DNA from: Candidatus Woesearchaeota archaeon
Lineage (GTDB): Archaea > Nanobdellota > Nanobdellia > Woesearchaeales > ARS49
Assembly: GCA_018302815.1 (NCBI GenBank)
Contig: JAGVZE010000019.1
Span: forward strand, 1 to 64,000
DNA length: 64,000 nt
Direction of reading: 5' to 3'
The notes under the pieces are model-generated. The model searched no databases and had not been told where the DNA came from. It saw only the letters and a program-made list of their open reading frames with translations. The translations under genes and the position numbers were made by a program. Of this stretch, positions 1 to 33,183 are shown one piece after another; positions within the stretch are counted from its first letter, which is position 1, and each line of letters begins with the position of its first letter.

Positions 1-78
1 TATGGCAATGGTGCCAAAATCGACGCACAGAAAAAAGACATAGGCCGCCGAGCTTACATCATCATCCTCAAAGATTAA
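1..78 (+). CDS. C-terminal end of a DUF2080-like small protein (cut by window start)
   Basis: Frame 1 is open from the first base to a TAA at 76-78 and encodes 25 residues beginning YGNGAKIDAQKKDIG and ending in IIILKD. A GNGAK...IG(R/K)...I.V pattern is what I remember of the C-terminus of DUF2080 (small archaeal AbrB-like proteins labelled transposon-encoded). The start lies outside the window. With so little sequence the family call is tentative; that this is the tail of a real gene is supported by the following TATA-rich intergenic gap. Confidence 0.5.
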   Translation, partial: YGNGAKIDAQKKDIGRRAYIIILKD

Positions 79-108
79 CTATTTCTGTCCCACACCCCCT
101 AAAACCCA

Positions 109-144: not shown

Positions 145-1245
145 ATGCGGAAACACAAAACTGTCAAGAAAGTCACTCTTAGTGACTCAGGTATGACTCG
201 GCCAAAAGCAGGCTCTTGTGAACGGTGCACTCGGCCAATTATTAATGTTCGTGGAAGATGTCTCCCTTGTAATTATTTCTACAAACACAAGCGATACTAT
301 CGTGGGCTGAAGAGTGCGCCAAAGTATGATTTTGCTCAGGGTCTTGATCCAAGTACGGTAGGGCGGGAAATTGAGCGAGCGCGAGTTGTGCCCCGTTCCA
401 AAATACCAGTCAGGGGCGTTGTTGAATCTGATAAACCAACATTAGCACAAGCGCCTGTTCTGAAGAAAGACAGGCAGGGCGCAAAACCACTGAAAAAATA
501 TGCGCCAATAAATATGTTTAGGGAATTTAAATCCAAATATCCTACCCACATAATCTTCATTCAGTGTGGTAGATTCTATGAAGTCTTCGGAGAGGATGCT
601 AACGAATGTCACAGATTATTTGGATGGAAAACAATTAAAAAATGTGGTGTAGATTGGACTGGCACCCCTACTTGGTCACCTAATTTTAAAGACAAATTGA
701 AATCACTAAATCGCGCATACATTATTGTTGACCAGATTATTGAAGATGGTTATTTGAAAAGACAACTTGCCGAAAAACATCCACCTAAGCTCATAACAGT
801 AAGAAGAAGAAATCTCGCGCACACTATTTCGCATAAATGTCCGACCTGTGTCAACCAAGATGTTTGGGTAGGACATACTGAAGCAATCCTGCTTGAAGAG
901 CTGAGACGACGAGGCATACCATGCAAATCGCAGTCCTGCATACGTACGCGGCGGAGAGGAAATAAAGTATACCATACTGATTTATCCATAGAACCTAGAG
1001 AAGAACAACAAGTCGTCATTGAAGTGCAAGGACCCGCACACTATGAAGAACCAGCCCAGATGGCGTTTGATGAAGAAAGGAGAAAAGACATAGAGCACGA
1101 AGGCTATAGTTTCATAATCGTGCGAAATGAAGACTTGCGAACAGACAGAATAGCAGTAGGAGAATACGTCGTTCAAGAGTTGAAACGCATCAAACAAGCA
1201 AGACTCGGACCTAATCATTGCCAGATCTCAGTTCAGCGCTTGTAA
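145..1245 (+). CDS. Zinc-finger / MutS domain I / Vsr-DUF559-like nuclease fusion protein
   Basis: Unusual three-part protein (numbering from the TTG at 136). Residues 28-45 hold a CERC...CLPC pair, a probable zinc knuckle. Residues about 125-215 resemble MutS domain I, the mismatch-reading domain: CGRFYEVF at 144-151 keeps the Phe-x-Glu pair (F147, E149) that MutS uses to probe a mismatch, followed by GTP and VDQ as in that domain. After a further CPTC, residues about 245-350 look like a Vsr/DUF559 PD-(D/E)XK nuclease: TEAILLEEL, then HTDLSI, then VVIEVQGPAHY, then a GYSFIIVRNEDL strand. The rest of MutS (clamp, ATPase) is absent. Inference: a mismatch- or lesion-specific nicking enzyme. Codon choice is richer in T-ending codons than most neighbouring plus-strand genes, hinting at transfer. 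ATG 145 is preferred over TTG 136 because of the TATA spacing. Confidence 0.72.
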   Translation: MRKHKTVKKVTLSDSGMTRPKAGSCERCTRPIINVRGRCLPCNYFYKHKRYYRGLKSAPKYDFAQGLDPSTVGREIERARVVPRSKIPVRGVVESDKPTLAQAPVLKKDRQGAKPLKKYAPINMFREFKSKYPTHIIFIQCGRFYEVFGEDANECHRLFGWKTIKKCGVDWTGTPTWSPNFKDKLKSLNRAYIIVDQIIEDGYLKRQLAEKHPPKLITVRRRNLAHTISHKCPTCVNQDVWVGHTEAILLEELRRRGIPCKSQSCIRTRRRGNKVYHTDLSIEPREEQQVVIEVQGPAHYEEPAQMAFDEERRKDIEHEGYSFIIVRNEDLRTDRIAVGEYVVQELKRIKQARLGPNHCQISVQRL

Positions 1246-21422: not shown

Positions 21423-22351
21423 CGCCGGAACCTGCCTATCACAGATGACTTCTTATATTTTGACAACATCTGCTCCCAACCGCCAACAGAACCCTTCAAT
21501 GAACGAATCTTCTGCCGTTGAGATTCCATCTGATTATGATAATTAACCCTGCCGATAGAGCCGCCATAATACTCCTTTTGAGCATTAACCAACATGCGCT
21601 GAGCGACTTTAAGCTGCTCATGAATGAAACGCAACTTGTTTTTAGCGAACAAAACACGCCCTTCAAGATACGCCCACACTACGAGCAAAAACAAAACCGC
21701 GAGCGACATCAAAACACCCTTAAAATGGTCCTGAACATACGAAACGACATTCCTCCTCGCCAAACGAACAAGCGCGCGCTCACGAGCAGCCGCAAGCAAC
21801 GCCAAATCAAGCTCTTCACGCGCATCACCCACCAAAGATGGAACCTCCTCAAAACGTTCAACTTCAAACGCATTCTTGGCTTCTTCAAGCAAGAAATCAA
21901 CCCGTGAAAGATTCACAGTCTCATTCACCTGCTCGAGCTCATCTAAAAAGCCAACCAATGCATCATTAGCATCGAACGCGCTCTGCTTCTTATTAGCTAT
22001 CCACTGCGCCCGCTCAATCACAAACGAAAAATTCTGCCCAGGCCTCAAACCAGAACGGCTAGCTTCATCCAGCAAAGCAAAATATCGTTCAGCAAGAGGC
22101 CGGCCCTCATCCGTCTCATTAAGCGAAAGCGCGGTTTGAAAAAGCAAAACAGGATCCTTGCCCTTAAGCGCGCCATCCATCTGCAAAAGCGCATCCTCAA
22201 GCGACTCATACGGCAATCCCGCGCCCTTCAACTGCTCAACATCCAAACTCGCATTAAAGTACGCATCCTTTGCATCAGCATACACCGCGCCCTGAACGTT
22301 CATTGCCAATAACACCAGAAATGCCAGCCTAAAAAGAATTGAACGCCTCAC
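21419..22351 (-). CDS. Signal-peptide membrane protein with cytoplasmic helical tail
   Basis: 310 aa. A signal peptide (FRLAFLVLLAMNVQGAVYA) leads to an external helical domain of about 190 residues, one TM (about 212-232, GVLMSLAVLFLLVVWAYLEG) and a cytoplasmic coiled-coil-like tail. The tail motif AQKEYYGGSIGRVNYHNQME is the same pattern as two tail repeats of the giant protein upstream. GTG start inside GTGA overlapping that gene's stop: same operon, probably the same complex. Function unknown. Confidence 0.65.
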   Translation of the reverse strand: MRRSILFRLAFLVLLAMNVQGAVYADAKDAYFNASLDVEQLKGAGLPYESLEDALLQMDGALKGKDPVLLFQTALSLNETDEGRPLAERYFALLDEASRSGLRPGQNFSFVIERAQWIANKKQSAFDANDALVGFLDELEQVNETVNLSRVDFLLEEAKNAFEVERFEEVPSLVGDAREELDLALLAAARERALVRLARRNVVSYVQDHFKGVLMSLAVLFLLVVWAYLEGRVLFAKNKLRFIHEQLKVAQRMLVNAQKEYYGGSIGRVNYHNQMESQRQKIRSLKGSVGGWEQMLSKYKKSSVIGRFRR

Positions 22352-25300
22352 TTCTTCAACCTCTTCTTCGCCATAACAATATGTGCGTCTGCCTCGGTTA
22401 AAAGCTTTTCCAACTCCTCAACCGAAGCAAAATATCTTCCCCGAGACATCGTTCGCTCAACAAAGTACGCAGTCTGAACCTTCTTAATCATCTGAACAAT
22501 ACGCTCACGCTCTTTAGTCTCAAGCTCAAACGCGACCGTCTTGCTAGCAATTCTCGCACGCGCAGAACGCAGCCTTGACATCTCAGAAGATATCTTATTC
22601 AACCTGCGCTCCAACTGATTCATCGACTTGTAATACTCAGGAGAAACTATCTCTTTCTTCACAAAATATTTCTCCTGAACTTCACGCATCAAACGCTGAA
22701 CGGATATGAATTCTTTAGTGAAAACCTCAAGCATATGCGCTATATAGACTATCGCGAATCTCCTATACGCCGCGTAAACAGCAGGAGACGCCACTGCGAT
22801 AACCAATAGAATCGCCCACCAATAATCTTTGATGAAATACGCCAAATTGAACGCCTGCTCAACTTCTATAGACTGGACATTCAACGCTTCGCCCGAATAT
22901 TTAAGCGACCCATCAAAGTCCTCACGCTCAAATGCCTTGACTGCAAGCTTAAGAACGGCCTGCGTCTCAGAAACATCAAGACCTTTCGCCTTCGCCTGCG
23001 CTATCTGCTCTTTTACCGACTCAATCATCCTGCCCGCTTCAAGCTCATTCTCCAGCAGCAGCTTAAGCTTGCCCGCAAGGAATCCTACTTCTCCAAAGCC
23101 CTCTGAAACGAACGCCTCCTCAAGCAGTTTCTTCAACACATCAGCGCGCAATGTAGGATAGTTAAGCGCCACAACCTGCGCGTACAAACTCTCAACATCT
23201 GTAACAAGGCGCTCTGCCTCAATTGGGCTCATCTCATAAATGTTCAACGTAACAGTCTTGTATTCCAAAACAGTCTTTGTGAACTTCGCGGAATACAGTA
23301 TTCCTCCCCTGTACTCAACACCCGCGCCCTCGAGCAAAGACGTTATGATAAAAGTGACATTGAGCGATGACCTATTCGCATACGCAGGAGCTGAAAGCTC
23401 CACCCCGAACGCTTTGGTATCCCCATACTGGATATTGGACAAATACAAAGGCGACCAGTATACGTACTTATCAAGATAGCCAATCACTGAAAGATTCACT
23501 AAACGGATGAACGAACTATTATACACGTTCGTAACCTCCAGCGGGAAAATAATACGCTCCCCGCGCACCACATTGATAGTCTCATTGGTAAACAGCGCAG
23601 CTTTCTCAAAGTAAGTCTTTACGAAAGTTCCAGGACTTGGACCTGCACCAGCACCGCCTCCTCCACCACCAGCTCCAGCACCACCGCCTGCACCGCCTCC
23701 ACCACCGCCTCCTCCACCACCGCCGCCTCCTGCGGAGAGAACATTGACCTGTTCTGTCGTGCCGGCAGTCTGATTAATGGATGATAACGAGACATTCGAA
23801 GCGTTGAAACCATCCGCAATCGTGCTGACATTCTGCAAGCCAGTCGTCGCATTGGACAAGATAGTGACAGTAATAGTACTACCGTCGCTTTCATTCGGAC
23901 CCATCTCTCCAATATCCCTTGAAAGCGTTCCGCTCGTCAACACCCAATCAGCAGGCAAAGTTATATTTAGCGTCACGTTCGAAGCATTCCTCGACCCCGC
24001 ATTCGTCACCCTCGCAGTAATCGTCACCCCGACTTGTCCCTGCGTCACTGATGCAGGAATAGTCAGAAACTCCGCAAACAAGAACGCATCATCAACCGTG
24101 TTAATTATGAAACTCACATTACGCGCATCAGGCGTGGCATTTGGCGATGCAGAGATTGTCACGTTGTGGAAAAACACACCCACAGTGGACGGCACCGTCG
24201 CATTAACTTCTATAAGTCGCACAGCTCCAGGCACCAAAGTGAAATTCGTCTCGTTGAAAAAAGTATCATTAAATGACGAATTGAACACGAAAGTCAAATT
24301 GAAATCACCAGTATTTGTGACCGTTATAGTCCCCAGCGTTATGTTTTGACCCGCAGGACCGCTGAAAGCACCCAACGTCGTAGGACTCCTATCCCAAGTA
24401 CGCTCAAACTCAACAGTGAAATTTGTAAGATTCGAAGCGGCATTGTTCCCCAACGTATCATTTGCAGTCAAGAACGCACTGTAATTACCCGCGACAATAG
24501 GCGTGAACGAAGCATTGAACAAATCTGTTCCGTTCGGAGTCATACTGATATTCACCAAGGAAGTCCCATTCAACAATATGTGCAACACAACAGCGTCAAC
24601 ACTTGTGAAATTATCAGTCACGTTTGCCGTGAAATTCATCTGCACCCCAGGATCCTGCCCTGCGCTATCGTTTGGCGATAACAGCAAGCTGTTGAAATCA
24701 GGAGGAGTGAAATCTATAGTGAACGATCGATTCTCGCTAGTGTTCGTATTAGATGAGGAATCCAGACAGAAGACATTCCACTGTCTTAGCCCCTGCGAGA
24801 ATCCGACAACCGTGAAATTCGTAACCGTATCATTTTGAACAGTCGAATTCGTCGCGTTAAGAGTGCCATTTATGTTCAAAGAACAATTGAGCAGAAGCGA
24901 TGAGTCATCAGTCGCATTGAAGCTGAAATTGACTGATGTCGAAGTCGTATTCGAAGCGTTCGCAGGCGCAACAAGCAAAATAGACGGAGCCGCGCCCGAA
25001 ATCACAGTTGTCTGCTGAGTGGCGTTCACCGTCAACACCTGGCCGGACACGTTAGCGAAAGACACATTAACAGTATTGTTCAGTAGCGTCCAGTTCGCAA
25101 GAACGCTGCTCACATTCATAGTGATATTGATTAAAATAGACTGATTCGGACTGAAATTCCCAAGAGCGAACGTATTATTCCCGCTAGTAGGAGCAGGAGA
25201 TGCGCTATCGAAAATAACCCCTGCAGGATAATCCTCAACAAGAGTCACGTTGAACGCATCATCATCGCCAGTATTGTTCACCAAAACCTGATAGAACAAC

Positions 25301-28300
25301 TGCGCCCCCCTGAAAACAGGATCAGGCAAATCAATCTTCATAACAGAGACGTTAGGACTTCCCAAAACAGTCGTGTTCGTGCTATTCGTCACAAACAGCG
25401 TTGCGTTCGTCGAATTAATGAAGCTCACATTATACAAATTCACAAGAATCGTCCCATTGCTCACGTTCGCGCTCACGTTCACAGTGATATTTATCGTGGC
25501 AAACTGGTTCGCGGACAAGTTGCCCAAAAAGAAAGTATCATTACCCGAAGTCGGCGCAGGAGAGGAATTATGGAACACAACCTGCGACGGATAAGTCTCT
25601 ATCACTGTGACATTCACCGCAGTAGCGTTACCCGTATTGTTGATAAGTATAGAATAGTTGAGCTGATTGCCCCTTACCACCGGATCAGGCGTATCTATCT
25701 TCGAAGTCAGGATTGTCGGAGTGACAATAACCGCGGTGAAATTCGTGCGCTCGCTCGCATTCACATTACCAACCGAGTCATTCGCGACAATCGTTATGTT
25801 ATAAAGACCCGCAAGATCAGGAATCGTGAAAGAAGCGTTATACTTTTGAGTCAAGCCCACCTGGCTTAGCGCAAGCTGCTGGATAGTACCGTTCGGGAAA
25901 GTTATATTCGCAATCACAGTTCCCACTGCGACGTCATCAGTCACATTAGCCGCTACCTCTATAGTAGTTAGAGTGTTGAATAAGCTGTTCGCAACAGGAA
26001 TCAACGCTGTCACGTTCGGAGGCGTTAAATCAAATGACACTGTAAGCGGAGCATAATCCGCGCCGAACGCGGCATCATTGCCAAGCGTCACAATAGTCAC
26101 ATTAACCGCGTAACGAATATTCACAAAGCTTGTCGTTGAATTGACAAAATCGGCAAAACCCTGCTCTACAAACACAGACGCGTTCCCCTCATTAACCGAA
26201 CTCCCATTATAAGTCCCAACCCTCACGTACTGACCAGACGACCAGTTAAACAAGTCTATTCCGAGCGGGTCCTCTATCGTACCGCCAGGAGCCGCGCCTC
26301 CGCACGTGAACGGTCCTGCCACATCAGAATTGAAACAATGCTCAAGAACAAACGTGAAATTGTTCATCTTGGAAGCGTTCGCTCCCTGAACTGTCAAATT
26401 CGACAAGTTATAACTCAAGTTCAAATACGCCTCAAGATCAGCATTCGCGCCGCCACCATTGCTCCTTCTAACCGCGAAATACACTGCGTCATTGACCTGC
26501 GTTGCCGTGAAAGTATTCACAGTCGAACTAAAGCCCTCATCGAACGCCACATACTCGCCTGCATCAGGAGTGCCATTATCCGGACTCGAATCACCAAAAC
26601 CAGGATCCGTCGCGTTAAGCGTGAATGTGTAATTCTGTCCAGCAGTCAACGATTGCAAGAAATCATAGTTATCATTGCACGTAACGTTCGCGAAAGTGAA
26701 ATTGAGACACTTATACAAAGTATTACCTACTGCTGTTGCAGACACGTTTGCAACAGAGAGGCTTAAATCAGACAAATCTATCGCGAATACATTCGCGAAA
26801 CGCCCGGCATCTTCAGTACTGTTCGCAAATCTAATCACGTTGAAAGGACTTGAAGAGTTATGCGTGAACACAGTCATATTAATGATAGAACTGTTCGCGA
26901 ACGAAACGCCAATCGTCAAAATGCCAGACACATTTGAAATAACAGACTCTGTGAAGTTTACGACATTCACATCCTCATCGACAACATCAAGCACCCTGTT
27001 CTCAACAGTTATCCTGTTGAAGTTTGCCTGCGAACTATCGTTCACATTGCCTGACAAGTCCACCGCGCGAACAGTGATGTTATACGTTCCCTTCTGCGTC
27101 AAATTCGTGAAGATAACGCTATAGATGCTACCGCTGACTGACATTGGAACAACCTGCACTGTGCCATTTGGCAATGTGACCCTCGCTTCAACAAGCGAAA
27201 TCGAAATATCATCAGACACGTTGGCGGAAATATTCACTGAGCCATTGATAGTCACATTCGTTGCGTTCGCAGGGGAAAGAATAGTCACATTCGGCGCAAT
27301 AACATCAGTAGTGTTCACAACAGTCGTGGACTCATTCACGTTAACCGTGATTGTTTGCCCAGAAAAGTTCGCGAACGTCACATTAACCGTATTGTTAATC
27401 AACGTACCGTTCACTATCGCAGAACTCACGTTCACAGTGATATTCACCCTAAATGAAGCATTAGGCGAAAGATTCCCTACGCTGAACGTCGCGTTCGCGC
27501 TCACCGGCAAAGGCGAAGAACTCACGAAAGCAACACCGCTTGGATACTCCTCAAGCACGGTCACGTTGAACGCGTCATCATCGCCAGTATTGTTCACCTC
27601 TACCGCGTAGACCAAAAGCGAACCGTTCACCACCGGATCAGGATTATCAAGCTTGTCAACAGAAAGCTCAGGGAAACCCAAAACTGTCGTCAGTTCAAAA
27701 GCGGATGAAACCGCAATTTGGCCAGAACTATTCGCGAAAGTCACATTCACAAAATTATTCAAAATACTCCCATTGGACAAGGAATCATTCACGCGAACAG
27801 TTATGTTGATCCTAAACACCGCGCCCACAGAGAGATTTCCAACACTAAAAGTATTGTTGCCTGAAATTGGAGATGGAGCCGCACTGACGAAAGTGACATT
27901 CGCAGGATAATTATCTACGACTGAAACATTCACCGCGACATCATCACCAGTATTGTTCAAAATTATCGTGTAATTCAACAACGCCCCCTTTGTAACCGGA
28001 TCAGGCGAATCCTGCTTGATAGTCAAAATATCAGGCGATAAAGCAATCACGGTAAAGTTCGTACGAACAGTACTATTCACATTGCCAAGAGAATCGTTCG
28101 CGACAAACGTGACATTAAAGAGACCTGCAAGCAAAGGAGTTGTAAATGACGCGTTATACTTATCAGTCGCAACCACTTGCGTCAAATTCACCTGCTGAAC
28201 AGTGCCATTCGGGAAAGACACATTAGCAAACACAACACTCACATTACTCACATCTGTCACGTTCGCTGAAATCTCAATCGTCACAGAGTGGTTGAACGTG

Positions 28301-31300
28301 CTATTCTCAATTGGCCTTGTGTCAAACACCAACGGACCCGTAGCATCTATCGTGACATTTCTCGTCTCAGTGCTATTCTGATGGCCAACCCTATCAAACG
28401 CAGTCGCGTTAAAGAAGTACAAACCATCAGCCAAGCCCGTGAAATTAACGAAAAACGGCGAGGAATTCGAAACCATCTCATTAATAGAACTTCCCGACGA
28501 ATTGAACAAGCGAACAGTGATGTTTCCAATATTCGAATCATTCACGCTTACGTTCACAAGGATATTCCTTCTTCCAAGCAAAGCACCTGACGCGTCAGTT
28601 GGATCCACAAAACTGATGTTCGGATTTGTCAAATCAACTATAAACGTCCTGTTCGACGTCTGAACGCTATTTCCAAACGTGTCATTCGCCCCGGCGAAAT
28701 AATTGTGAACACCCTCTGCAAGACCAGTCACATTGATCGAAAAGAAATTACTGAGCGGAACATAGGTTATATTGGAGCTCAAAATGCTGCCCGTTGTCAA
28801 AACTGGAGGATCGTAAGTAACATTATTACTGCCTTCGATCAACAACTCTTCTATGTCGGTGAAATTCTTTGGAGATGTATCTGAAGTCGATATCGTACCA
28901 ACACTCACACCATTCACTAAAACATCAAATGAACCGGAGGAAATTGTGAAACGCACAGTCAGATTCGCATGAGACACGTTCTCTGGAATCGGCACAGTGT
29001 GGGTCTGAGCGGCACCCGTTGTAATAAATGTAAGAGTAGTAGTATTCTGCGCATTCCTAACCGGAGCCGTGAAGTTCGTTCTAGACCCATTGAACTCTAT
29101 GAACGCGACATCCAAATTCTGCTCAATAACACTAACGTTCACCGTCAATGACGTGTTAGTCGTCACAGTGTCATTCGTAGGCGTTGGGCCCACAAATTCC
29201 ACCTGCGGAATGTCGTCATCAGCCGCTATCCTGAAAAATGTAGTCTCGGTAGAATTGACATTCCCAACAGTATCATTCGCAAAGAAAGACACATTATAAC
29301 GTCCTGAAACAGCCTGCGTCACAACAGAGCTGTTGTACTTATTCGTACCGGAAACAAGTGTCAAATTAACAGACTGAATCGTCCCATTAGGGAACGTGAT
29401 ATTCGCAATCACCTTGTCCACCGCAGTATCATCAGTTACGTTCGCCGCGATTTCAATCGTCACGTTCGCGTTGAAGACGGAATTCTCAACCGGCCGCACA
29501 TCAAACACCAAGGGATTAAAAATATCCTGAATTACGGTCGTCAGCTCAGAATCATTAAGCTCAGACTGCTCACCAAACGCATTCGCAAAAGTCGCATTGA
29601 CAGAGTTGTTCAGAACGCTGCCATTAGGAACATTCGCGCTCACATTCACAGTAATATTGATTACGAAAGACGCATTCGAAGATAGATTCCCTATGCTAAA
29701 CGTGCCATTTGGCGAACTTGGAGACGGCGATGCGTTGTGGAACGTGACATTCTCAGGATACACATCAAGCACGGTCACATTAAACGCATAATCATCACCA
29801 GTATTGTTAATTAATATAGAATAATTCAGCTGGGTTCCTCTAAACACCGGATCAGGAGAATCCGACTTTTCAAGCGTGACATTAGGCTCTCCTTGAACAG
29901 TCGTCAATTCGAAATCAGATACAGTGGTATTCGCACCGCTGATATTAGTGAATGTCGCATTGACCGAATTATTCAAAACCGTACCATTCGATAATGAACC
30001 GCTCACATTAACAGTGATATTAATCAGAACAGACTGGTTCGGCGACAAATTGCCCAAAGCGAACACGTTGTTTCCTGAACTTGGAACAGGAGACGCGTTA
30101 TTGAACGTGACTCCGAGAGGATAATTCTCCACAACAGTCACGTTGAACGCATAATCATCACCAGTATTATTGATAAAAATCGAATAATTAAGCTGCCTTC
30201 CACGAAGCACAGGGTCCGGCGAATCGCTCTTGATATTAATAATAACAGGACTTCCAAGAACAGTCGTAAGCGTGCTGTTCGTCACGGTAATAACCTGACC
30301 GGACACATTCGCGAACGTGACATTATAGCTATTGTTGAGCAAGGTCCCGTTCGAAATAACTGAGCTCACGTTGACAGTGATGTTAACCAAAAACGACGTT
30401 CCTGCGGAAATATTCCCAAGAGCGAACGTGTCATTGCCAACTGAAGGGGCAGGAGATGAATCATGGAACACTACTCCTGAAGAATAGCTCTCCACAACCG
30501 TCACGTTGAACGCGTCATCATCGCCGGTATTGTTCACCAAAATCTGATAAACCAGCTGAGTTCCTCTTGGAACAGGATCAGGAGAATCATCCTTACGCGT
30601 GCTTATCGTCGGGAACCCTAGAACGGTCGTGAGCGTGCTGTTCTGCACCGTGACAACCTCTCCTGTTGTGTTCACAAACGTGAGATCATACGAGTTGTTA
30701 AGCAACGTGCCATTAGTGACCTGCGAACTAACATTCACCGTGATATTGATTGTTGTGAACGCTCCAGCCGAAAGATTTCCAAGCTCAAATGTGCTGTTAC
30801 CAATTGTCGGAACAGGCGATGAATTGTGGAACGCGACACCTGACGGATAAATTTCTATAACAGTCACATTCACGGCAGTCGCATTACCAGTATTGTTCAC
30901 CGAAATCGTGTAATTAAGCTGCTGGCCCTTGACCACAGGGTCGGGCGAATCTATCTTTGTCGTAAGGAAAGTCGGGAAAATTGCGTTGACCGTAAAGTTC
31001 GTCCTCTCAGTATTGTTCAAATTCCCCGCAGCATCATTAGCTATTATCGTCACATTATAGAGACCTATCGGAAGCGAGCCATTCGCCGTGAAAATCGTCG
31101 AATATATGCTGCCTGTCGCAAGAGACATCGACTGCACTGTGAAACTTCCGTTCGGGAACGTAATGTTTGCGCGGACAGTTCCAACAGCAACATCATCAGT
31201 CACGTTAGCAGTGATGTTAATGCTCTGCGTCTGGTTAATTACACTTGGCACGGCAGAGGCGTTTGTCACGTTAGGCGGCGTCAAATCGAATGACACTGTA

Positions 31301-33183
31301 AGAGGCGCGAAATCAGCGCCGAATGCCGCATCATTTCCTAGCGTGGTTATTGTCACATTCACAACATACCGAACATTAGTGAAATTCGTCGTGCTGTTGA
31401 TGAAATCGGCAAAACCACTCGTCACGACAACCGTCGCGTTCCCCTCATTAATAGAACTCCCAGTATACGTCCCTATGCGAACATACTGATTAGAAGTCCA
31501 GTTGAACAAGTCTATTCCAAGCGGGTTCTCAATCGTACCGCCAGGAGCGGAACCTCCACATGCGAAAGGTCCTGCAATATCTGAATTATAACAATGCTCC
31601 AATATGAATGACAAATTGACCACCTTTGAACTTGTCACTCCAAGATTCGCAAGCGAAGTCAAGTTATAGCTCAAGTTAAGGAATGCCGCCAGATCTAATG
31701 CCTCAGTCACACCATTATTTCTTCGCGCAGCAAAGTATGCGCCGGATCCACCTGCCGCCCCATCATTTGCCTGAGTCGAAGTAAACGTATTGGTAATAGT
31801 GCCTGGTCCGTCACCAAATGGATCGAACACTCCACCATCAGGCGTTCCCTCATCAGGACTCGCATCACCAAAACCAGGGTCATCCGGCGTAAGCTCAAAT
31901 GTGTAAAGCTCGCCAGGAGTCAAGCCCGCAATGATAGTCGTCCAGTTGCCATCGCACGACCTTGAACTGAAGTTCCAATCATGGCACTTCATCAAAGACG
32001 TACCGCGTGCGATTGCAGTGACTGTGGCGCGCGTGAAATTCATACCTGTCGGGTCTATCGCGTACAACTCGTTCCACTTCCTCGCATTCGACATCGATTC
32101 AGGCAAATCATCCACATTCAACAATGGAGACTCATTGAGCGCGACACCTTCAAACGCGATTGACTTAATCGGACCTTTATCAAACTCGACATCCACATCC
32201 GCCCTATCAGGCAACTGAACACTTTGAACCGACCTAGACCTTGAATCGAAAAGCACGCTGCCCGAACCAGCCTTCACCTGAATCCTTGCGGCAACAGACC
32301 GCTTTGATGCGTCCACAATCCTTAAAATGCCAACGTCCTGTGGCTGAACAATCTCGGATATATTCGCTGCTTTCGACACATTCGTCGCATTAGATACGAC
32401 CACTTCCACAGGAACATCGTCTACTTCCACTGAAACAGACTGCGGTTCAAAAATGACCTCGCCAGACTCATTTACGACCACAACCTCACTTGATTCGTTC
32501 ACAAGCGATTCATTCACTACCGGCTCATCGGACAGGTTCTCCTCAATTACTTGCGGAACTTCAAGCGGAACCTCAACTGCAACTGGAGCGTCTTGGGCGA
32601 TAGGCGGTTCTACCGATACATTCACTTCTTCACCCGCAGGAACCGCGGACCTTAGGCTCTGCGACAAATCATCAAGAGCTTCTTCAACAAGCGGAGCCTG
32701 CGCGGGACTATCCACAGTCTCGATAACTTCAACAGAAGTTTGCTCAACAGGAACATAAACCTCCTCAAGTGGAATCACAACAGACGCAGGCGTATCACCA
32801 CTCGCGTTCTCTTGCGCACCCAACACAACATCACCAGAGAGGCTCTCGTCCGCTTGGGAGGTAGGAACATGATCAGTTTGTACTATCTGCTCTTGCACAG
32901 AAGACTCATTCTGTGCGTTCAATTCTGTAGAAATCTCGATTGCTGGAACAGACTCGTTCACAGGCTCGATTATTGCAGGTTCTGCAGAAACATTTTCCTG
33001 CAACAGAGCTTGATTTGATTCTACTGATTCATTCGCGATGTTCTGTAAACGCTGAGCCATCGCGACAAGCGCGTCGCCAACAAGCGGAGCTACCGCGGGA
33101 GTATCAACAGTTTCCACCACAGACACATCCGCGTACGCGGACATCACGAGCAGCAAAAGCAACACTATCGGAAGACGCCTCAT
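22348..33183 (-). CDS. Giant surface protein (3611 aa) with eight DUF11 repeats, poly-Gly stalk and cytoplasmic tail
   Basis: Signal peptide at residues 1-20. An acidic N-terminal region contains two related segments (VVETVDTPAVAPLV... and VIETVDSPAQAPLV...). Two copies of a roughly 240-residue domain follow at about 395-640 and 2155-2400 (DPGFGD(A/S)SPD, LEHC(Y/F)NSD(I/V)AGPF, APGGTIE(N/D)PLGIDLFNW). Eight DUF11 repeats of about 120 residues (SPDPVxRGxQLNYSI...NNTGDDxAFNVTV...LGNLS) sit in groups of four, two and two near 734-1215, 1717-1958 and 2490-2730. Ig-like P-N-V-T domains lie between them, and NxS/T sequons are very dense, implying N-glycosylation. A stretch of almost only Gly/Ala (about 3147-3182) precedes a juxtamembrane helical part, one TM (about 3456-3478) and a tail with two repeats (VQEKYF..., VQTAYF...). 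Likely a cell-surface fibre or adhesin, type I topology (inference). Middle gene of a three-gene operon. Confidence 0.9.
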   Translation of the reverse strand: MRRLPIVLLLLLVMSAYADVSVVETVDTPAVAPLVGDALVAMAQRLQNIANESVESNQALLQENVSAEPAIIEPVNESVPAIEISTELNAQNESSVQEQIVQTDHVPTSQADESLSGDVVLGAQENASGDTPASVVIPLEEVYVPVEQTSVEVIETVDSPAQAPLVEEALDDLSQSLRSAVPAGEEVNVSVEPPIAQDAPVAVEVPLEVPQVIEENLSDEPVVNESLVNESSEVVVVNESGEVIFEPQSVSVEVDDVPVEVVVSNATNVSKAANISEIVQPQDVGILRIVDASKRSVAARIQVKAGSGSVLFDSRSRSVQSVQLPDRADVDVEFDKGPIKSIAFEGVALNESPLLNVDDLPESMSNARKWNELYAIDPTGMNFTRATVTAIARGTSLMKCHDWNFSSRSCDGNWTTIIAGLTPGELYTFELTPDDPGFGDASPDEGTPDGGVFDPFGDGPGTITNTFTSTQANDGAAGGSGAYFAARRNNGVTEALDLAAFLNLSYNLTSLANLGVTSSKVVNLSFILEHCYNSDIAGPFACGGSAPGGTIENPLGIDLFNWTSNQYVRIGTYTGSSINEGNATVVVTSGFADFINSTTNFTNVRYVVNVTITTLGNDAAFGADFAPLTVSFDLTPPNVTNASAVPSVINQTQSINITANVTDDVAVGTVRANITFPNGSFTVQSMSLATGSIYSTIFTANGSLPIGLYNVTIIANDAAGNLNNTERTNFTVNAIFPTFLTTKIDSPDPVVKGQQLNYTISVNNTGNATAVNVTVIEIYPSGVAFHNSSPVPTIGNSTFELGNLSAGAFTTINITVNVSSQVTNGTLLNNSYDLTFVNTTGEVVTVQNSTLTTVLGFPTISTRKDDSPDPVPRGTQLVYQILVNNTGDDDAFNVTVVESYSSGVVFHDSSPAPSVGNDTFALGNISAGTSFLVNITVNVSSVISNGTLLNNSYNVTFANVSGQVITVTNSTLTTVLGSPVIINIKSDSPDPVLRGRQLNYSIFINNTGDDYAFNVTVVENYPLGVTFNNASPVPSSGNNVFALGNLSPNQSVLINITVNVSGSLSNGTVLNNSVNATFTNISGANTTVSDFELTTVQGEPNVTLEKSDSPDPVFRGTQLNYSILINNTGDDYAFNVTVLDVYPENVTFHNASPSPSSPNGTFSIGNLSSNASFVINITVNVSANVPNGSVLNNSVNATFANAFGEQSELNDSELTTVIQDIFNPLVFDVRPVENSVFNANVTIEIAANVTDDTAVDKVIANITFPNGTIQSVNLTLVSGTNKYNSSVVTQAVSGRYNVSFFANDTVGNVNSTETTFFRIAADDDIPQVEFVGPTPTNDTVTTNTSLTVNVSVIEQNLDVAFIEFNGSRTNFTAPVRNAQNTTTLTFITTGAAQTHTVPIPENVSHANLTVRFTISSGSFDVLVNGVSVGTISTSDTSPKNFTDIEELLIEGSNNVTYDPPVLTTGSILSSNITYVPLSNFFSINVTGLAEGVHNYFAGANDTFGNSVQTSNRTFIVDLTNPNISFVDPTDASGALLGRRNILVNVSVNDSNIGNITVRLFNSSGSSINEMVSNSSPFFVNFTGLADGLYFFNATAFDRVGHQNSTETRNVTIDATGPLVFDTRPIENSTFNHSVTIEISANVTDVSNVSVVFANVSFPNGTVQQVNLTQVVATDKYNASFTTPLLAGLFNVTFVANDSLGNVNSTVRTNFTVIALSPDILTIKQDSPDPVTKGALLNYTIILNNTGDDVAVNVSVVDNYPANVTFVSAAPSPISGNNTFSVGNLSVGAVFRINITVRVNDSLSNGSILNNFVNVTFANSSGQIAVSSAFELTTVLGFPELSVDKLDNPDPVVNGSLLVYAVEVNNTGDDDAFNVTVLEEYPSGVAFVSSSPLPVSANATFSVGNLSPNASFRVNITVNVSSAIVNGTLINNTVNVTFANFSGQTITVNVNESTTVVNTTDVIAPNVTILSPANATNVTINGSVNISANVSDDISISLVEARVTLPNGTVQVVPMSVSGSIYSVIFTNLTQKGTYNITVRAVDLSGNVNDSSQANFNRITVENRVLDVVDEDVNVVNFTESVISNVSGILTIGVSFANSSIINMTVFTHNSSSPFNVIRFANSTEDAGRFANVFAIDLSDLSLSVANVSATAVGNTLYKCLNFTFANVTCNDNYDFLQSLTAGQNYTFTLNATDPGFGDSSPDNGTPDAGEYVAFDEGFSSTVNTFTATQVNDAVYFAVRRSNGGGANADLEAYLNLSYNLSNLTVQGANASKMNNFTFVLEHCFNSDVAGPFTCGGAAPGGTIEDPLGIDLFNWSSGQYVRVGTYNGSSVNEGNASVFVEQGFADFVNSTTSFVNIRYAVNVTIVTLGNDAAFGADYAPLTVSFDLTPPNVTALIPVANSLFNTLTTIEVAANVTDDVAVGTVIANITFPNGTIQQLALSQVGLTQKYNASFTIPDLAGLYNITIVANDSVGNVNASERTNFTAVIVTPTILTSKIDTPDPVVRGNQLNYSILINNTGNATAVNVTVIETYPSQVVFHNSSPAPTSGNDTFFLGNLSANQFATINITVNVSANVSNGTILVNLYNVSFINSTNATLFVTNSTNTTVLGSPNVSVMKIDLPDPVFRGAQLFYQVLVNNTGDDDAFNVTLVEDYPAGVIFDSASPAPTSGNNTFALGNFSPNQSILINITMNVSSVLANWTLLNNTVNVSFANVSGQVLTVNATQQTTVISGAAPSILLVAPANASNTTSTSVNFSFNATDDSSLLLNCSLNINGTLNATNSTVQNDTVTNFTVVGFSQGLRQWNVFCLDSSSNTNTSENRSFTIDFTPPDFNSLLLSPNDSAGQDPGVQMNFTANVTDNFTSVDAVVLHILLNGTSLVNISMTPNGTDLFNASFTPIVAGNYSAFLTANDTLGNNAASNLTNFTVEFERTWDRSPTTLGAFSGPAGQNITLGTITVTNTGDFNLTFVFNSSFNDTFFNETNFTLVPGAVRLIEVNATVPSTVGVFFHNVTISASPNATPDARNVSFIINTVDDAFLFAEFLTIPASVTQGQVGVTITARVTNAGSRNASNVTLNITLPADWVLTSGTLSRDIGEMGPNESDGSTITVTILSNATTGLQNVSTIADGFNASNVSLSSINQTAGTTEQVNVLSAGGGGGGGGGGGGGAGGGAGAGGGGGGAGAGPSPGTFVKTYFEKAALFTNETINVVRGERIIFPLEVTNVYNSSFIRLVNLSVIGYLDKYVYWSPLYLSNIQYGDTKAFGVELSAPAYANRSSLNVTFIITSLLEGAGVEYRGGILYSAKFTKTVLEYKTVTLNIYEMSPIEAERLVTDVESLYAQVVALNYPTLRADVLKKLLEEAFVSEGFGEVGFLAGKLKLLLENELEAGRMIESVKEQIAQAKAKGLDVSETQAVLKLAVKAFEREDFDGSLKYSGEALNVQSIEVEQAFNLAYFIKDYWWAILLVIAVASPAVYAAYRRFAIVYIAHMLEVFTKEFISVQRLMREVQEKYFVKKEIVSPEYYKSMNQLERRLNKISSEMSRLRSARARIASKTVAFELETKERERIVQMIKKVQTAYFVERTMSRGRYFASVEELEKLLTEADAHIVMAKKRLKK

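Follow-up and report, generated by a model that had tools for sequence, protein, structure and literature searches.

A woesearchaeal protein combining a zinc ribbon, MutS domain I and a Vsr/EDxHD/DUF559-type nuclease domain

We found a 366-aa protein that joins an N-terminal zinc ribbon, a complete MutS domain I and a nuclease domain of the Vsr/EDxHD/DUF559 type. It is encoded at positions 145-1245 (+ strand, from the ATG at 145) of the window, the whole stretch of 64,000 nucleotides of woesearchaeal DNA that was analyzed. This three-part architecture had been proposed from the sequence in an original prediction, and is borne out by profiles, shuffle controls and a structure model. Fusion of a nuclease to MutS domain I (MutS-I) apart from the MutS ATPase appears undescribed. 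We see about an even chance that the protein is a free-standing, ATP-independent endonuclease guided to mismatched or deformed DNA.

MutS Domain I and Zinc Ribbon

MutS-I occupies residues about 118-205 (496-759, + strand). Pfam MutS_I (PF01624) matches residues 123-166 (E 2.7e-9; 37.7 bits, cut-off 20.6). An independent profile, whose rows are MutS, phage, polyvalent and reverse transcriptase-fusion domains with the window protein left out, gives 41.9 bits over residues 123-200, against at most 6.7 in 2000 shuffles. The alignment contains the consensus points from entry to end (the YP entry, G-x-FYE, EDA, the P of AGxP and the final Q), so that, given the span of the profile match, the domain is complete; the proposed MutS_I similarity thus extends to the whole domain and not just the FYE segment. 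Departures from consensus are GRFYE for GDFYE and TGTPTW for AGxPxH. The best solved relative of this part by sequence is Thermus aquaticus MutS (1ewq), and NCBIfam MutS models weakly match the stretch also matched by Pfam MutS_I.

The mismatch probe expected from the original prediction is kept, as F144-Y145-E146 (574-582, + strand), which the alignments place as the counterpart of the mismatch wedge Phe and Glu of MutS; these mismatch-reading residues are named Phe36 and Glu38 in MutS (PMC12292046). Pfam and NCBIfam searches of the 366 aa gave no match to MutS domains II-V (connector, core, clamp, ATPase), in agreement with the predicted absence of the ATPase; with no ATPase domain V, clamp or core, the protein does not classify as MutS.

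The Cys4 zinc-ribbon module (residues 17-87; 193-405, + strand) has CxxC motifs at 25-28 and 39-42. It shares 37-41% identity with the N-terminal parts of short proteins from two other Woesearchaeota, whose genomes are in the same order as that of the window and whose sequence differs after the module. The comparison, in which neither the four Cys nor the GRCLPCNY core varies, marks residues 17-87 as a module common to several woesearchaeal proteins.

MutS-I Outside MutS

Detached MutS-I is not new in itself, having already been described in polyvalent phage and plasmid proteins, which Iyer and colleagues gave in 2017 as its only instance outside MutS (PMC5512222). Our scan of viral contigs yielded 80 MutS-I loci (L136-L215), 68 of them complete frames shorter than 800 aa, with a median length of 202 aa. 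All ten proteins checked match MutS_I (E 1e-19 to 1e-33); the domain occurs in them on its own or together with ParB/HTH or AAA domains, and none of the ten has a nuclease domain. ATPase-free MutS-I is common in small phage proteins and fusions, more varied than the described polyvalent proteins. Because phages carry MutS-I by itself, in proteins of 84-130 aa, the domain evidently works independently of the other MutS domains. FYE is retained in 58 of 74 parsed viral domains, the remainder being altered at Glu or Phe.

Another member of the order carries MutS-I in a diversity-generating retroelement (L223:1-4483, on contig C116 of genome G312). Its reverse transcriptase (RVT_1, 3e-18) has a C-terminal MutS_I match (1.4e-8) in which the Glu is replaced, giving FYR for FYE. 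The template repeat lies at about 1778-1856 and the variable repeats form the ends of two Lcl_C genes; the template/variable differences fall at template adenines in 20 of 23 and 15 of 22 cases. A tree pairs this domain with that of the window protein (support 0.93), both on very long branches; BLAST gave no support for special kinship, and we do not propose it. In the window's genome itself, contigs C20 and C15 each start with one of two diverging reverse-transcriptase fragments that have an LGNLTSQ motif (L012:2-583 and L013:2-583); the genome parts examined showed no template/variable repeat pair for them.

The Nuclease Domain

The nuclease domain covers residues 242-352 (868-1200, + strand), as placed by an AlphaFold2 model, structure matches and the DUF559 profile. 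The isolated C-terminal region matches DUF559 (PF04480) with E 3.6e-5 and 24.0 bits (cut-off 20.6), and MTES_1575 below that family's own cut-off. A profile of seven DUF559-like domains, with the window protein left out, scores residues 245-349 at 26.1 bits, the best of 2000 shuffles scoring 8.2. Given a 3-row alignment that included two distant relatives, AlphaFold2 modeled residues 242-352 with pLDDT 86.6 and pTM 0.77; without an alignment it gave pLDDT 34 and an unusable model. VIA-align placed the predicted model closest to the I-Bth0305I homing endonuclease (3r3p; Z 13.4, rmsd 3.0, 96 aligned), NGO0050 (3hrl; Z 12.4, rmsd 1.6, 90 aligned) and Vsr (1cw0; Z 11.4, rmsd 2.2, 100 aligned), with one mitoribosomal protein falling among these top ranks. 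In Foldseek the same model matched no PDB entry below E 0.001 and 25 viral models, several of them annotated as endonuclease, homing endonuclease or DUF559.

The nuclease had originally been called Vsr/DUF559-type. The DUF559 assignment stands, scoring over the cut-off, and the model has a Vsr-type fold; in profile searches the Vsr assignment failed, Pfam Vsr giving no match at E up to 10 and a small profile of two woesearchaeal Vsr sequences giving none to the 366-aa protein. A strong PDB match to Vsr from one of our profiles (A3) was discounted because A3 itself contains Vsr sequences, and the Vsr-free profile A11 made only weak PDB matches, topped by I-Bth0305I at E 0.067. We place the domain in a broadly defined Vsr/EDxHD/DUF559 family, outside Vsr proper and nearer to the EDxHD homing-endonuclease and DUF559 domains.

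The putative active site (880-1071, + strand, from alignments) comprises E246 (880-882), D279 (979-981), E293 (1021-1023), H299 (1039-1041) and D309 (1069-1071). E246, D279, E293-x-Q-G296 and D309 stand in conserved alignment columns and H299 only approximately at the usual His; a catalytic role for the five is suggested by these positions. The ExDG motif typical of DUF559 reads EVQG here and EVNG in I-Bth0305I. The two cysteines of CPTC (C232 and C235; 838-849, + strand, from sequence) might form a metal site with C260 and C265.

As the closest solved fold, and as the top if weak A11 match, I-Bth0305I favors reading the protein as a homing-type or mobile nuclease, its EDxHD-like domain having borrowed MutS-I for DNA bending or binding and its target being a sequence rather than mispairs. 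We judge this rather unlikely, in part because FYE has been kept here, whereas it is lost from some detached MutS-I domains; the setting of the gene, described below, bears on it in both directions.

Pairing of the nuclease with a methylase in the manner of Dcm and Vsr is also unlikely, because the window's genome, estimated 100% complete, lacks a C5-cytosine methylase (PF00145). Probable true Vsr endonucleases occur in other genomes of the order (L104:1489-1896 and L100:1498-1899), one of them from the same family as the window's genome.

Gene Neighborhood

Flanking this orphan gene are an insertion sequence and a tRNA gene. The contig starts inside the insertion sequence, of which positions 1-97 (+ strand) hold the 3′ end of a coding frame and the terminal repeat ..TTTCTGTCCCACACCC; near-identical copies lie at about 12 contig ends of the same genome (including L015-L021, L033, L039 and L042). 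This multicopy element, with terminal repeat TTCTGTCCCACACCC, breaks up the assembly, and further contigs of the genome are broken by other repeats. On the other side, 12 bases after the stop codon, is a convergent tRNA-Gly(GCC) gene (1258-1328, − strand, by ARAGORN), a neighbor and not part of the enzyme. Beyond lie genes for PAS, KaiC-like, V4R and radical-SAM proteins; neither repair nor methylase genes are among the neighbors. The window also contains an open frame of 3611 aa (22348-33183, − strand).

Such flanks of insertion sequence and tRNA gene would suit a homing-type nuclease. Against it, the gene is single copy in the genome, a duplicated tRNA-Gly end was looked for and none found, and no intron, intein, interrupted gene or site-specific insertion is seen around it, in a contig that starts only 144 bases upstream.

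The protein might instead be a defence nuclease directed at incoming DNA of phages or plasmids, in which it would recognize unpaired or distorted stretches; we consider this improbable. Related archaea and viral contigs have DUF559/MTES_1575-like nucleases fused to SF1-type helicases, nuclease-helicase fusions of a type common in defence loci, and the sporadic distribution of the protein would also fit; on the other hand no defence genes adjoin the gene and PADLOC gave no match.

Improbable too, in our view, is a recent, functionless or decaying fusion confined to one lineage. It would account for the singleton and for a GC3 of 0.36, against 0.41-0.58 in neighboring genes, but the frame is open, both domains are complete, the catalytic residues are intact and synonymous codon use is ordinary. 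The gene also seems to have its own promoter: the TATA-box-like TTTATATA (113-120, + strand, from sequence) lies about 25 bases 5′ of the ATG, a placement that would fit the TATA box of a leaderless archaeal transcript starting at 145.

Distribution

Among 352 genomes of the order, no second protein combines zinc ribbon, MutS-I and nuclease. Full-length relatives were likewise not found in two phylum samples or in species-wide contig scans, nor in peptide-pattern scans of phage, plasmid and viral collections. The collections searched may leave out records near the window's genome. Such orphan distribution is a further point in favor of a homing-type nuclease. Two pattern matches from phage and plasmid collections were rejected, one being an ordinary MutS and the other an isolated Deinococcus fragment; weak nuclease-region matches in three genomes (G431, G432 and G069) were inspected and judged chance, and DNA-pattern matches with CGRFYEVYG (L073/L074) belong to an unrelated phage protein.

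The order-wide MutS_I survey gave 103 matches in 102 of the 352 genomes, nearly all inside long MutS frames; short frames, where inspected, proved to be MutS genes broken or cut by contig ends. Only two weak matches lie outside MutS, those of the window protein and the reverse-transcriptase fusion (L223). The window's genome has no other MutS_I match.

Proposed Function

In the guided endonuclease that we propose, the zinc ribbon would hold DNA while MutS-I probes the duplex for places that are easily kinked or opened, such as mispairs and small loops, F144 being inserted into the duplex and E146 assisting. The tethered Vsr/EDxHD-type domain, with its five candidate catalytic residues, would then cut nearby, as a nickase if the protein is monomeric. 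All of these properties are our inference: that the protein binds DNA, that it selects mismatches or kinks, that it cleaves, and that it nicks instead of cutting both strands; so is its biological role.

Support for a guided endonuclease comes from the MutS-I, whole and with FYE, together with the predicted nuclease fold and intact active-site columns. The fusion makes functional sense because both parts have relatives, MutS and Vsr, that act on mispairs. By analogy, EDxHD-type homing enzymes also tether a catalytic domain to separate DNA-binding modules (PMC3943268). The genome encodes NucS/EndoMS, and NucS is a one-protein PD-(D/E)XK mismatch endonuclease; its presence lends support by showing that a one-protein enzyme for this task is a normal solution in archaea.

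The presence of NucS also counts against a guided endonuclease, the host being already provided for and the new gene having no repair-gene context. The grip of MutS on DNA is helped by its clamp domains, and the missing clamp, the altered residues near the probe (GRFYE, TGTPTW) and EVQG for ExDG each tell against it. The architecture is also represented by a single sequence, so conservation of FYE within it has no comparison. The narrower proposal, that MutS-I freed from the clamp guides a nuclease of Vsr/EDxHD type onto mispairs and so makes a new ATP-independent single-protein mismatch endonuclease, we hold only tentatively, as possible but doubtful. The one-protein mismatch nickase of the original prediction is a reasonable idea and unproven, since the fold is shared equally with homing endonucleases, the genome lacks a C5 methylase, and some detached MutS-I domains have lost the Glu.

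The protein poses a clean mechanistic question that a single purified enzyme can address directly, whether MutS-I can find mismatches without clamp and ATPase cycle. Should the protein prove to cleave mispaired DNA, it would provide a compact mismatch-detection tool and add a third way, after NucS/EndoMS and Vsr, in which one protein cleaves mismatches.

Comparison with Known Systems

With MutS the protein shares the whole of domain I and the F-Y-E probe; it differs in having no connector, core, clamp or ATPase, and in GRFYE for GDFYE. MutS-I outside MutS, in a minimal form of ~80-90 aa, is shared with the small phage proteins and with polyvalent proteins, in which the described domain mostly co-occurs with ArdC-N (Iyer et al., 2017; PMC5512222). 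The several conflict domains, such as ArdC-N, that mark polyvalent proteins are not found in the 366-aa protein, which has three modules only.

MSH1 (MutS with GIY-YIG) and MutS2 (MutS with Smr) likewise append a nuclease to a MutS-family part, but are full MutS-family proteins with ATPase, MutS2 lacking domain I (PMC12292046, PMC1564403). Our literature search for MutS-I fused to a nuclease, largely outside subscription journals, returned full MutS proteins only. Since all the known MutS-nuclease fusions checked carry the ATPase, the combination appears to be undescribed, as first supposed.

I-Bth0305I (3r3p) resembles the protein in nuclease fold, in its EVNG/EVQG motif and in having a tethered DNA-binding region, but the identity is 15%, the DNA-binding region is different, and no intron context is seen for the gene described here. 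Vsr (1cw0, 1vsr) shares the fold, with the core Asp and Gly aligned; the protein has no Vsr profile match and its genome no C5 methylase to accompany it. NucS/EndoMS, a one-protein mismatch endonuclease of the same genome, differs in being a separate gene with an unrelated recognition domain.
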